Below the pieces are notes generated by a model that had not been told where the DNA came from, did not search any database, and worked only from the letters and a program-made list of their open reading frames with translations. The translations under genes were made by a program, and so were the position numbers. Below are positions 6,986-63,709 of a stretch of DNA of 64,000 bases, piece by piece (position 1 is the first letter of the stretch; the number at the start of each line of letters is the position of its first letter). The stretch comes from Clostridia bacterium (GTDB lineage Bacteria; Bacillota; DAOUPZ01): contig DAOUPZ010000014.1 of NCBI GenBank assembly GCA_030625885.1, positions 1-64,000 on the forward strand, written 5' to 3'.

Positions 6986-7000
6986 TTGTATTAATCTCTA

Positions 7001-7029
7001 TTGACAATGCTTTTTATTAATGCTAAAAT
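7001..7029 (+). promoter_or_regulatory. Sigma-A promoter of the second aromatic operon
   Basis: TTGACA (7001-7006), 17-nt spacer, TAAAAT (7024-7029). The predicted transcript begins near 7036, immediately before T-box Stem I. Confidence 0.8.
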
Positions 7030-7050
7030 ATGTTTTAATATTATATACAA

Positions 7051-7338
7051 AAGCAATGACTGAGGAAAGTAGATTAGGGAAGCTTTTCAGGGAGAAAATG
7101 TCATAGACTGGAAGCGTTTTCAAAGTGGAAATAATTGAAGTTCCCTCAGGAGCTGCAAGCTGAAACCAGCAATGGTAAGTAGGCGAGGACGGAAACCTCT
7201 ACCGTTAAAAAGAGGGACGTATCGGGTGTTATTATACCCAGTATGTAAAGTGGGTTTGCAGAGAGATTTGTAAGCTAACCAAGGTGGTACAACGGGAAAT
7301 ATGCTTCTCGTCCTTTAGAGGATGAGAAGCTTTTTTTA
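7051..7338 (+). promoter_or_regulatory. T-box leader (complete), probable Phe specifier
   Basis: A T-box senses uncharged tRNA and prevents termination. Stem I base CTGAGG (7060-7065) pairs with CCTCAG (7144-7149); an AGTA element follows the 5' strand and AGGGAGA fits the AG-bulge region. The specifier side reads TGAAGTTC (7136-7143), most sensibly TTC (Phe) at 7141-7143; GTT is the alternative phase. The T-box core AACCAAGGTGGTAC is at 7277-7290, followed by the terminator GCTTCTC / GAGAAGC with T-run (7304-7338). It should control the downstream aroF copy and the genes behind it. Confidence 0.88.
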
Positions 7339-7390
7339 TTATTTATGTCCTGATTGCCATGCATACGAGTATCATTTAATCCTGTACGGT

Positions 7391-7489
7391 AAGAGAGGGC
7401 TTATGGGAAAACTGTAAGTCAATCAAGGTGGTACCGCGGAGAATCAAAAGCACTTCGTCCTTAGGATATAAGGATGAGGTGCTTTTTTT
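7391..7489 (+). promoter_or_regulatory. Second, Stem I-less T-box core with terminator
   Basis: AATCAAGGTGGTACCGCGGA (7421-7440) is a textbook T-box/antiterminator sequence, and 7445-7489 forms a terminator whose arms carry AAAGCAC and GTGCTTT, followed by a T-run. Only about 80 nt separate it from the first terminator, too little for a normal Stem I, and no specifier loop is visible. It may be a remnant of a tandem T-box or may borrow tRNA recognition from the first unit. Confidence 0.75.
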
Positions 7490-7531
7490 AATAGAGTTAA
7501 ATAATATAACCTTTTTGTAAGGTTTGTACTA

Positions 7532-7675
7532 AGGTATGGTTATGCTTTCAGCCACTTTCTAAGCTAAAGAAGGTCGTGCGATATAGGAAGTTGCTACTCT
7601 TGAAGTATGGTAGGTAATAATTGATAGGATTGAAGCCATCGACGCAATAAGCTGTCTTCCAGCATAACCATACCT
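7532..7675 (+). repeat. 144-nt element closed by a 15-bp perfect inverted repeat
   Basis: AGGTATGGTTATGCT (7532-7546) and AGCATAACCATACCT (7661-7675) are exact reverse complements enclosing 114 nt. Inside, ACTTTCT / AGAAGGT can form a further hairpin. There is no T-run after it and no plausible ORF inside. It could be a structured leader RNA or a small MITE-like insertion; I do not recognise it. Confidence 0.6.
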
Positions 7676-7798
7676 AATGTCATGTTTTTAATTAAGGTTT
7701 TGTATTTTCAAAATCTTTTCCTACTTGCTACCTGCTGGTTGCTAACTGCTTAAAGATAGCGAAACTGTCTTTCAAAAAACAAATGAGGAGGTTTTAAA

Positions 7799-8812
7799 AT
7801 GATTGTTGTGATGAAGTTGAAATCTGCAAAAGAAGAAATTAATGATGTGCAAGAAAGATTGGAAGGAATGGGGTTTAGAATTCATCCCATTATTGGAACG
7901 GATCGAATTGTGATTGGGGCCATTGGGGATAGGCAGGCAATCCTAAATTCCGGTATTGAAGTTATGCCTGGGGTTGAACAAGTGATTCCTATTATGAAGC
8001 CTTATAAGTTGGCGAGTAGAGAACTGAATCAAGAGGATACGATTGTTGAGGTAGAGGATGTTAAAATTGGTGGAAAAGATCTGGTTGTAATGGCGGGACC
8101 TTGTGCTGTGGAAGGTATGGAACAATTATTAGAGATTGCACATATGGTTAAAGATGCAGGTGCGAAAATTTTACGTGGGGGTGCATTCAAACCCCGTACC
8201 TCGCCTTATAGTTTTCAGGGGTTGGGTGAGGAAGGTTTGAAGATGATGGCAGAGGCCAAAAAACAAACTGGGTTAAAAATCGTAACGGAAATAATGGATG
8301 TTAAGCATATTGATTTGGTTTCTCATTATGCTGATATTTTGCAGATTGGTGCACGTAATATGCATAACTTTTCTTTACTGCGAGAAGTAGGTCAAAGCAG
8401 GAAGCCGGTTCTTTTGAAACGGGGTATGTCAGCCACAATTGAAGAATGGTTAATGGCAGCAGAGTATATTATGTCTGAAGGGAATCATAAAGTTATTTTA
8501 TGTGAACGTGGTATTCGAACCTATGAAACACATACACGTAATACACTAGATATTAGTGCCGTTCCGGTTATCAAACAACTGAGTCATTTGCCCATTATTG
8601 TTGATCCCAGTCATGGCAGCGGGCAATGGCGATTGGTTAATCCATTGTCAAAGGCAGCAGTGATAGCAGGGGCTGATGGGTTGATGATTGAGGTTCATCC
8701 TAACCCCAGTCAAGCACTTTCTGATGGGGCACAATCCTTGACGCCCAAAAATTTTCGCTGCTTAATGAAAGAATTAGAAGGGGTAGGAAAATTGTTGAAT
8801 AAATCCATATAA
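7799..8812 (+). CDS. aroF: DAHP synthase, copy 2 (T-box controlled)
   Basis: Same architecture as the copy at 5077: N-terminal ferredoxin-like domain (about 1-68) and class I-beta catalytic barrel with [40 protein letters not shown] and VDPSHGSG. At 337 residues it ends at LLNKSI without the C-terminal tail of copy 1. GAGGAGG precedes ATG 7799. Being behind a probable Phe-specific T-box, it is likely induced when charged tRNA falls, giving the cell one conditional and one differently controlled entry enzyme. It leads an operon with pheA, aroA, aroC, aroK and aroB. Confidence 0.96.
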   Translation: MIVVMKLKSAKEEINDVQERLEGMGFRIHPIIGTDRIVIGAIGDRQAILNSGIEVMPGVEQVIPIMKPYKLASRELNQEDTIVEVEDVKIGGKDLVVMAGPCAVEGMEQLLEIAHMVKDAGAKILRGGAFKPRTSPYSFQGLGEEGLKMMAEAKKQTGLKIVTEIMDVKHIDLVSHYADILQIGARNMHNFSLLREVGQSRKPVLLKRGMSATIEEWLMAAEYIMSEGNHKVILCERGIRTYETHTRNTLDISAVPVIKQLSHLPIIVDPSHGSGQWRLVNPLSKAAVIAGADGLMIEVHPNPSQALSDGAQSLTPKNFRCLMKELEGVGKLLNKSI

Positions 8813-9741: not shown

Positions 9742-11040
9742 ATGATTCAGAAGATTATACCTGTCAAAGGGTTAAGTGGTACGATCAAGATTCCAGGCGA
9801 TAAATCAATTTCTCATCGTTCCATTATGTTGGGAGCTATTGCAGAAGGGGTAACAGAAGTTGAAGGTTTCTTAATGGGGGCAGATTGTTTAAGTACCGTA
9901 TCATGCTTTCAGCAACTGGGAATCAATATTCAGGAAACCGCAAATCAGTCTCTTACGATAGAGGGCAGAGGCTTAATGGGCTTAAGTGAACCGAAAGATG
10001 TATTAAATGTAGGTAATTCCGGAACGACAATGAGACTGATGTTAGGATTACTCTCGGGACAGTCCTTTTATGCCACGTTGACGGGGGATGAATCCATTCG
10101 ACAAAGACCCATGAAAAGAGTGACACAACCTTTGTCCAATATGGGAGCTAAAATATTTGGTAGGAAAAGTGGTACGTTGGCACCGCTGTCTGTTGTGGGG
10201 CAAACACTTAAACCGATTACTTATCATTCGCCTGTCGCGAGTGCGCAAGTGAAGTCTGCCATATTATTAGCAGGGTTATATGCTAATGGAGAAACAACCG
10301 TGATTGAGCCAGCTTTATCTCGAGATCATTCGGAACGAATGCTGTCATACTTTGGCGCTCGAGTGAAGCGTGATGGACTCATAGTATCTATTCAAGGGCA
10401 GCCACATTTAGTGGGTAAAAAGATCAGCGTTCCTGGAGATATATCGTCAGCTGCTTTCTTTATGGTAGCAGGTTCAATTTTGCCGGACTCAGAACTTGTG
10501 ATTGAAAATGTGGGAATTAACCCTACGCGTAATGGTGTTATTACAGTTTTGCAAGAAATGGGGGCAAAAATCTCTTTGCAGAACGAGCGGGAGGAAACAG
10601 GGGAACCCGTTGCAGATATTCATGTTAAAACCAGCCAATTAAAAGGGATTAAAATAGGTGGAGATATGATTCCAACTTTAATTGATGAAATTCCGATTAT
10701 TGCCGTAGCGGCAGCTTTAGCTGAAGGAAAGACAGAAATACGTGATGCTGCGGAGCTTAAGGTCAAAGAAACGAATCGGATTGAAGTGATGGCAAAGAAC
10801 CTTACACGTATGGGTGTGCGGGTAGAAGAATTGCCCGATGGTTTGATCATTTATGGTTCTCCGCGAATAAAAGGTGCAGAAGTCAATAGCTTTGGTGACC
10901 ATCGTATTGCCATGTCTTTGGCTATAGCAGGTCTTGCTGCAAGTGGAGAAACACTTATTAATGAAGCTGAATGTGCTACAATATCATATCCGAGATTTTT
11001 TGAAGATATCAAGAAATTATCGGTGCAAGGGGGAAAATAG
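9742..11040 (+). CDS. aroA: EPSP synthase (3-phosphoshikimate 1-carboxyvinyltransferase)
   Basis: Joins shikimate-3-phosphate and PEP to form EPSP. The 432-residue length is normal. Signatures: PGDKSISHRSIMLGAIAEG near the N-terminus, LNVGNSGTTMRLM, GDESIRQRPM and, later, DEIPIIAVAAALAEG and SFGDHRIAMSLAIAG. The Gly/Ala pattern in the NSGTTMR loop is that of ordinary bacterial enzymes. Start ATG 9742 has GAGGGGGG just upstream; the reading frame continues back to 9685 through the hairpin but without a ribosome site. The stop codon abuts the aroC start with no gap. Confidence 0.97.
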   Translation: MIQKIIPVKGLSGTIKIPGDKSISHRSIMLGAIAEGVTEVEGFLMGADCLSTVSCFQQLGINIQETANQSLTIEGRGLMGLSEPKDVLNVGNSGTTMRLMLGLLSGQSFYATLTGDESIRQRPMKRVTQPLSNMGAKIFGRKSGTLAPLSVVGQTLKPITYHSPVASAQVKSAILLAGLYANGETTVIEPALSRDHSERMLSYFGARVKRDGLIVSIQGQPHLVGKKISVPGDISSAAFFMVAGSILPDSELVIENVGINPTRNGVITVLQEMGAKISLQNEREETGEPVADIHVKTSQLKGIKIGGDMIPTLIDEIPIIAVAAALAEGKTEIRDAAELKVKETNRIEVMAKNLTRMGVRVEELPDGLIIYGSPRIKGAEVNSFGDHRIAMSLAIAGLAASGETLINEAECATISYPRFFEDIKKLSVQGGK

Positions 11041-62395: not shown

Positions 62396-63709
62396 ATGAA
62401 AAAAGCTATTCTATATATCAACCAGTTTTTCGCAGGAATCGGTGGAGAAGATAAAGCTGATTACGCGCCTGAAATAAGAGCAGAATTAGTTGGTCCGGCA
62501 ATGGAACTCGATAAAAGATTACAAAATGCTGAAGTAACACATACAATTATCTGCGGGGACAACTTCATGGGTTCAAAGACAGAAGAAGCAGTTGAAGAAA
62601 TCCTTGGATTCTTAGCAGATAAAGAATTTGATATCTTCTTTGCAGGTCCAGCTTTCCAGGCAGGTCGATACGGTAGTGCGTGTGGTCATATTTGTAAAGC
62701 TGTAAAAGAAAAATTTGGTGTACCTATTATTTCTTCCATGCATGAAGAAAACCCTGGAGTAGATATGTTCAAGAAAGATATGATTATCTTCCCAAGTGGT
62801 AAAAGTGCAGCAGCAATGAGAAAAGATGTAAAGAAAATTGCTGCATATGGGGACAAGGTATTGGCTGGTGAAAAACTTGGCAATGCAGAAGAAGAAGGAT
62901 ATTTTGTAAGAGGCATCAGACATCAGGAATGGTTAGAAGATGCTACACCGGCAGCAGATCGTGTTATCGACATGTTGCTTAAAAAAATTAAGGGTGAATC
63001 CTTTAAAACTGAATTGCCTATTCCAAAATTGGACAGAGTACCGATTGCACCTGCAATTAAGGATTTAAGTAAAGCAACTGTTGCAATTGCTACTTCAGGT
63101 GGTATTGTTCCTGTGGACAATCCGGATAGAATTCAATCTGCTTCCGCTACTAGATGGGGAAGATACAGTGTCGAAGGTATGGAACGTTTGGAAGCTGGTG
63201 TATTTAAAACGATTCATGCAGGTTATGATCCGGCAGCAGCGGACGCAGATCCTAACGTATGTGTGCCGATTGATGCAATGAGAGCTTTTGAAAAAGAAGG
63301 AAAAATCGGTAGATTACATGAGTACTTCTATACGACTGTTGGAACAGGAACGACTCAAGCAGAAGCAGCTAGAATGGGTCAGGAAATGGTGGAATACTTC
63401 AAGAATGAAGGCGTTGACGCTGTTATTCTAACCTCTACCTGAGGTACCTGTACTCGTTGTGGAACAACGATCGTAAAAGAAATTGAGAAAGCTGGCATTA
63501 CAGTTGTCCAAATGGCTAACCTTATTCCGGTTGCTAAGACAGTAGGGGCGAACAGAATGGTACCAACCATTTCTATTCCATATCCATTAGGAGACCCTGG
63601 TACAAGCAAGGAAGAACAATGGAAGTTAAGATATCATAGAGTAGGCGTAGCATTGGATGCATTAGCTATTGATGTTAAAGAACAAACTGTATTTAAAGTA
63701 AAAATATAG
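62396..63709 (+). CDS. grdH: Betaine/sarcosine/glycine reductase selenoprotein B (in-frame TGA)
   Basis: The 437-residue gamma subunit of component B. TGA 63440-63442 encodes selenocysteine at residue 349 in LTST-U-GTCTRCGTT, the family active site, and the frame continues to 63709 (PYPLGDPGTSKEEQWKLRYHRVG). The N-terminus AILYINQFFAGIGGEDKADY and TSGGIVPVDNPDRIQSASATRWG favour the betaine/sarcosine type over glycine GrdB. It works with selenoprotein A and component C to make acetyl phosphate; those genes must lie beyond the window. GGGGGGTG upstream of ATG 62396. Confidence 0.9.
63443..63475 (+). promoter_or_regulatory. SECIS element in the grdH-like gene
   Basis: Twelve nt after the TGA, CGTTGT (63455-63460) pairs with ACAACG (63464-63469) around a GGA loop. 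Short stem; position is as expected for SelB recognition. Confidence 0.65.

Follow-up and report, generated by a model that had tools for sequence, protein, structure and literature searches.

What is the 144-nt element that lies between the T-box and aroF in this genome of a Clostridia bacterium: a third regulatory layer of the aro leader, a small non-coding RNA or a MITE? These were the options offered by the original prediction, made from the window (the whole stretch of 64,000 nt that was analysed), which described a unit at 7532–7675 with a perfect 15-bp closing stem, no ORF and no terminator. The description is accurate. The left arm of the closing stem, P1 (AGGTATGGTTATGCT, 7532–7546, plus strand), and its right arm (AGCATAACCATACCT, 7661–7675, plus strand) are exact reverse complements that enclose 114 nt in the window copy, and the pairing of the two arms is also seen as covariation. 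When the region 6987–7798 was shuffled 1000 times with a first-order Markov model, no inverted repeat of at least 15 bp with a spacer of up to 150 nt arose, and whichever strand is taken, the 144 nt fold better than their dinucleotide shuffles (z −3.1 for the plus strand, z −3.7 for the minus strand). The element contains no ORF of 60 aa or longer, and two terminator scans found no terminator 3′ of the window copy.

The predicted position also holds. The Rfam T-box (RF00230) spans 7047–7318, adjacent in the same leader and 5′ of the element, whilst an AroF-like ORF begins at 7799 on its 3′ side. A further unit intervenes at 7413–7493, between the Rfam T-box and the element: it is a second antiterminator/terminator-like structure with TGGTACCGCGG, so that the leader has two terminators in series. 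Between the element and aroF, at 7712–7752, lies a short repeat, CTACTTGCTACCTGCTGGTTGCTA, to which 40 or more places in the genome are similar. Far from this locus, the window holds a SECIS_4 selenocysteine insertion element at 63443–63480.

The original prediction was to fall if the genome held no second copy and covariation was lacking; both copies and covariation are present. A DNA search of the element's own genome (3,097,855 bases in 39 contigs) returned 67 matches to the 144-nt element, many of them full-length copies of 142–145 nt with 71–84% identity. The best identity of the window copy to any other is 90%, over 119 of the 144 nt, and most values are lower. A covariance model was built from 30 aligned full-length copies, a set that omits one deleted copy (L002), one interrupted copy (L021), one truncated copy (L026) and a duplicate entry (L030). 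On the element strand it identified 41 places with a score of 45.8 bits or higher, 35 of them above 80 bits; matches on the opposite strand at the same places, which reflect the palindromic stem, were left out of this count. Below 45.8 bits there are remnants with internal deletions but intact ends, one of which is a bare stem, and two neighbouring copies follow one another on contig C34. The remnants and the C34 pair would fit an element that duplicates and decays. The copies are old and have diverged from one another, and they show no sign of recent movement. Some have more of the flank in common, to the left or to the right, and several continue into other short repeats. One copy (L145, C23:79272) is interrupted towards its right end by ~120 nt of inserted sequence, which may be a nested insertion.

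This copy number bears directly on the idea of a regulatory layer specific to the aro operon, acting downstream of the T-box. In favour of such a layer, the element sits in the leader of aroF, with the T-box terminators on one side and the gene on the other; the ~40 copies elsewhere, however, adjoin genes that look unrelated and have no common theme (the genes were named by eye, without a family search), so that no association with aromatic amino acid genes is seen. We consider an aro-specific layer very improbable indeed: the claim of a third layer is contradicted by these further copies, and an aro-specific leader RNA is ruled out by copy number across the genome. The copy at the aro locus is probably a passenger that came to lie between the T-box terminators and aroF, and its effect there would go no further than adding a structured stretch to the leader transcript of aroF. 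What had been presumed to be an aro regulator becomes a member of a genome-wide family, and the annotation of the aroF leader changes accordingly.

The unit that is repeated is larger than the 144 nt first delimited. The whole dispersed repeat is found at 7521–7680 on the plus strand by covariance model R1 (167.7 bits). A leader of ~13 nt outside the stem (7519–7531, plus strand, consensus AAGTTTGTRCTTA) and a few 3′ bases are common to most copies; column information begins ~13 nt 5′ of P1 and fades a few bases 3′ of it. In the left flanks of 31 copies, a count in which L011 and L025 were mis-anchored and L008 and L026 unanchored, the information climbs from ~19 nt before GGTTATG. All copies share one architecture: P1 as the long closing stem, P2 as a second stem, a two-part core that is almost invariant, and a middle that drifts. 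In the window copy, all on the plus strand, the left side of P2 lies at 7550–7558 and the right side, supported by covariation in the copy alignment, at 7649–7657; seven P2 pairs were counted and 96.7% of P2 cells are paired. Core motif 1, AAGCTAAAGAA (7561–7571), is nearly invariant in the copy alignment, and core motif 2, CGACGC (7640–7645), falls in near-invariant columns. Between the two motifs lies the variable middle (7572–7635), which differs between subfamilies in the alignment.

In the 30-copy alignment, P1 and P2 together are paired in 96.7% of 660 cells. Double changes occur in 12 of the 22 pairs, comprising 10 of the 15 pairs of P1 and two of P2; one P2 pair, for example, is CG in 18 copies and UA in 11, and even the outermost P1 pair co-varies (AU in 15, GC in 7). 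None of 500 shuffles reached any of five pairing measures, although shuffling is no strict test of covariation where the copies come from one genome and are related. Sliding the partner by 1–3 columns lowers pairing to 27–42%, a control that leans towards the structure, which was drawn from the same 30 sequences. Less dependent on both the source of the structure and the kinship of the copies is a simulation of random changes in P1. The differences between 30 nearest-neighbour pairs comprise 35 double-compensated changes, 16 single changes that are still paired and 18 broken pairs, against 3.5, 27.9 and 68.9, respectively, expected from an equal number of randomly placed changes. Five distant copies (L110–L114) have different P1 and P2 sequences, and four of them have a complete P1; their subfamily retains only part of core motif 2, with CTCGCC in most members. 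The compensatory changes exceed chance. They were found among copies of one genome, and folded DNA would show the same pattern as RNA. Of the predicted structured RNA, the strong covariation stands, but what co-varies is a set of copies from a single genome, not a set of aro leaders.

These data speak for what we see as the main rival to the reading preferred below, namely that the copies are a large family of functional RNAs, or of parts of transcripts, selected at each locus, whose fold and core would bind a protein or another RNA. We regard this as unlikely. Among 38 copies (the 41 minus three that are deleted or interrupted), 26 retain all 14 inner P1 pairs, whilst the 38 carry 28 different left arms. 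Divergence from the nearest neighbour is 5.4% in the core (AAGCTAAAGAA and CGACGC) and 13.9% in P1, and the core stays almost fixed even though the divergence of the middle reaches 26%. That P1 and the core drift less than the middle points either to constraint acting on each copy in place or to descent from many constrained lineages. Arm-to-arm correction during replication could help to preserve the pairing of P1, but the core would not be held by it. A functional RNA would also be in keeping with a weak preference for G-U on the plus strand: with the outermost pair omitted, the non-Watson-Crick cells on the element strand comprise 16 G-U and 6 A-C (p 0.052), and P1 alone gives 12 G-U against 7 A-C in 38 copies. 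This excess leans towards a folded plus strand, but is borderline and no proof.

The genomic context is harder to reconcile with functional RNAs. Local G skew on the element strand is positive at all 41 copies, and the upstream gene runs in the same direction in 38 of the 41 and the downstream gene in 35, although gene contexts are approximate given crude ORF calling, and at least one antisense ‘gene’ (L128) may be spurious. That 38 copies are sense to the upstream gene would favour functional RNAs, but this proportion is no higher than the ~90% background: in the neighbourhoods of the copies, 603 of the 668 ORFs that reach 120 aa run the same way, so that gene direction confounds the orientation. 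Were the copies to follow the genes and nothing else, all 41 would take one orientation with p ~0.015, which for an orientation beyond gene-following is suggestive, not decisive. A terminator-like hairpin lies 5′ of the element in 22 of 41 copies, 3′ in 12 and on both sides in 5, which argues against a uniform transcription unit; the positions are inconsistent, so the copies occupy spacers without one fixed place in the transcript. In several copies the upstream terminator ends 9–18 nt before the start of the model, leaving no room for an ordinary promoter. The absence of a common theme among the flanking genes likewise tells against selection at each locus. A stand-alone sRNA gene with its own promoter and terminator was rejected, as terminators are found before, after, on both sides of or on neither side of the copies.

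The name MITE fits in part. The element is short, non-coding, multicopy and dispersed (~160 nt, 41 copies, no ORF of 60 aa or more), and it has terminal inverted repeats in the 15-bp P1, though the conserved leader lies outside them; what is lacking is a target-site duplication of 3 nt or more. A conventional MITE, with terminal inverted repeats and cut-and-paste movement by a DDE transposase (IS630-like, with a TA target), would account for the long inverted ends, the length of ~150 nt and the many intergenic copies, and 12 of 30 copies have GG...CC bordered by TA at either end. The outermost pair, however, co-varies (AU:15, GC:7), as expected of stem pairing and not of a fixed TA duplication; a duplicated 2-nt TA is thus neither supported nor contradicted by these copies. 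Across 34 copies there was no excess of duplications of 2–10 nt at any tested offset (the top z was 3.35 among ~30,000 tests), and a classic target-site duplication was rejected, none of 3 nt or more being present. A DDE mover should be blind to orientation, yet all 41 copies lie one way, and MITE copies decay once inserted, as most copies here do not. Nor did any unpaired end lead to a longer element, such ends being deletion remnants or chance matches. We consider the conventional MITE quite improbable.

With regard to other possible movers, the genome encodes two Y1 transposases and one reverse transcriptase. No end sequence matching the element was found in the flanks of these genes, and neither enzyme type is an obvious mover, the ends being unshared. 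At L149 (C23:745–1365) a reverse transcriptase ORF has one in-frame TGA in a frame of 466 codons. The genome also carries a second dispersed repeat of ~110 nt, a GGGGACA...TGTCCCC hairpin, seen at L128:4625–4735 and at L112 around 10100–10230, with more copies on contigs C3, C5, C8, C11, C12, C23, C24, C26, C27, C32 and C37. It is present in at least 14 places at 95–100% identity, a minimum count, as the scoring covered 14 of 134 candidates, and has no Rfam match. Two of its copies directly follow copies of the 7521–7680 element. This second repeat is probably structured, and it is possibly linked to the Y1 transposase on C10, whose flanks carry GGGGACAGTCCCC.

The reading that we favour, with a probability of roughly 0.6, is that 7521–7680 is one copy of a lineage-specific, non-coding, bcr1/ERIC-like dispersed repeat of ~160 nt. 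Such a repeat would have spread as a non-autonomous mobile element. The folded plus strand, either as RNA or as ssDNA on the lagging-strand template, would be what a mover encoded elsewhere recognises, and constraint on the fold would persist after insertion. We infer movement via a folded single strand from the lack of any duplication of at least 3 nt and from the single orientation of the copies. The small number of broken pairs per copy may be explained by a maintained function at least as well as by selfish spread. More speculatively, and in our view improbably, the ~40 elements may be a family confined to one deep lineage in which the plus-strand fold is kept in each copy and orientation is set by replication, the elements either moving as folded RNA or ssDNA without target duplication or serving as structural sites for replication or transcription. 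The family, some 40 diverged members of a single genome that combine a co-varying fold with a fixed core and a shared orientation, makes it possible to ask if small repeats in bacteria spread selfishly, are retained for a function or travel as folded single strands.

Beyond its own genome, a DNA search of 40 other genomes gave no match to the element, and neither did the covariance model, under stricter filters, in 397 other genomes of the phylum, which include none of the host order or class, for which the collection has no second genome. Plasmid and phage collections gave no match either. A pattern scan returned 6 genome-contig and 22 viral-contig loci, and these 28 were dismissed as coincidences since none matches the covariance model (best E 0.82). 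In Rfam, at gathering and relaxed thresholds, the window element and three further copies gave only chance-level matches, the best weak one being UCA1 (19.7 bits against a threshold of 80); as none of the four scored at the gathering threshold, a known RNA family was rejected. An integron attC site and self-cleaving ribozymes were also considered as candidates and set aside. The element is undescribed in the excerpts of literature returned by a text search, a type of search that cannot look up a sequence.

How does the element compare with known systems? The T-box leader (RF00230) is adjacent in the same leader, whereas the element itself matches no Rfam family. REP/RAYT systems and elements of IS200/IS605 type rely on recognition of a folded single strand, make no target duplication and show an orientation bias towards the lagging-strand template. 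The element differs from both in that the flanks of the two Y1 genes of its own genome lack its ends, and REP palindromes, in the excerpts of the literature consulted, measure 20–40 bp, compared with ~160 nt here. ERIC/RU-1, RUP and Correia/NEMIS are described, in the part of the source available, as intergenic repeats of 100–200 bp with inverted ends, whose transcripts are predicted to form long stem-loops, with ERIC having no known mover (PMC2229807). The element resembles them in size range, intergenic location and inverted ends. Table 1 of that source lists target-site duplications and a terminal 5′-TA-3′ for all three groups (PMC2229807), whereas here no duplication of 3 nt or more was found and just 12 of 30 copies have TA at each end. 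A co-varying 15-bp closing stem together with a fixed internal core is not mentioned in the portion of PMC2229807 that describes ERIC, RUP and Correia. The bcr1–bcr18 repeats of the Bacillus cereus group are reported, in excerpts from three sources, to be lineage-restricted intergenic repeats of 100–400 bp with tens of copies and conserved folds; bcr1 averages 39 copies per strain, bcr1–3 are called MITE-like, and bcr10 and bcr18 are predicted to be functional RNAs (PMC3446304, PMC6542083, PMC2267715). In the same excerpts bcr mobility is tied to a TTTAT motif, whereas no duplicated flank was seen in 34 copies of the element. Compared by description only, and within those excerpts, the element is like bcr1–bcr18 in being a short, lineage-restricted intergenic repeat that is present in tens of copies and conserves its fold.
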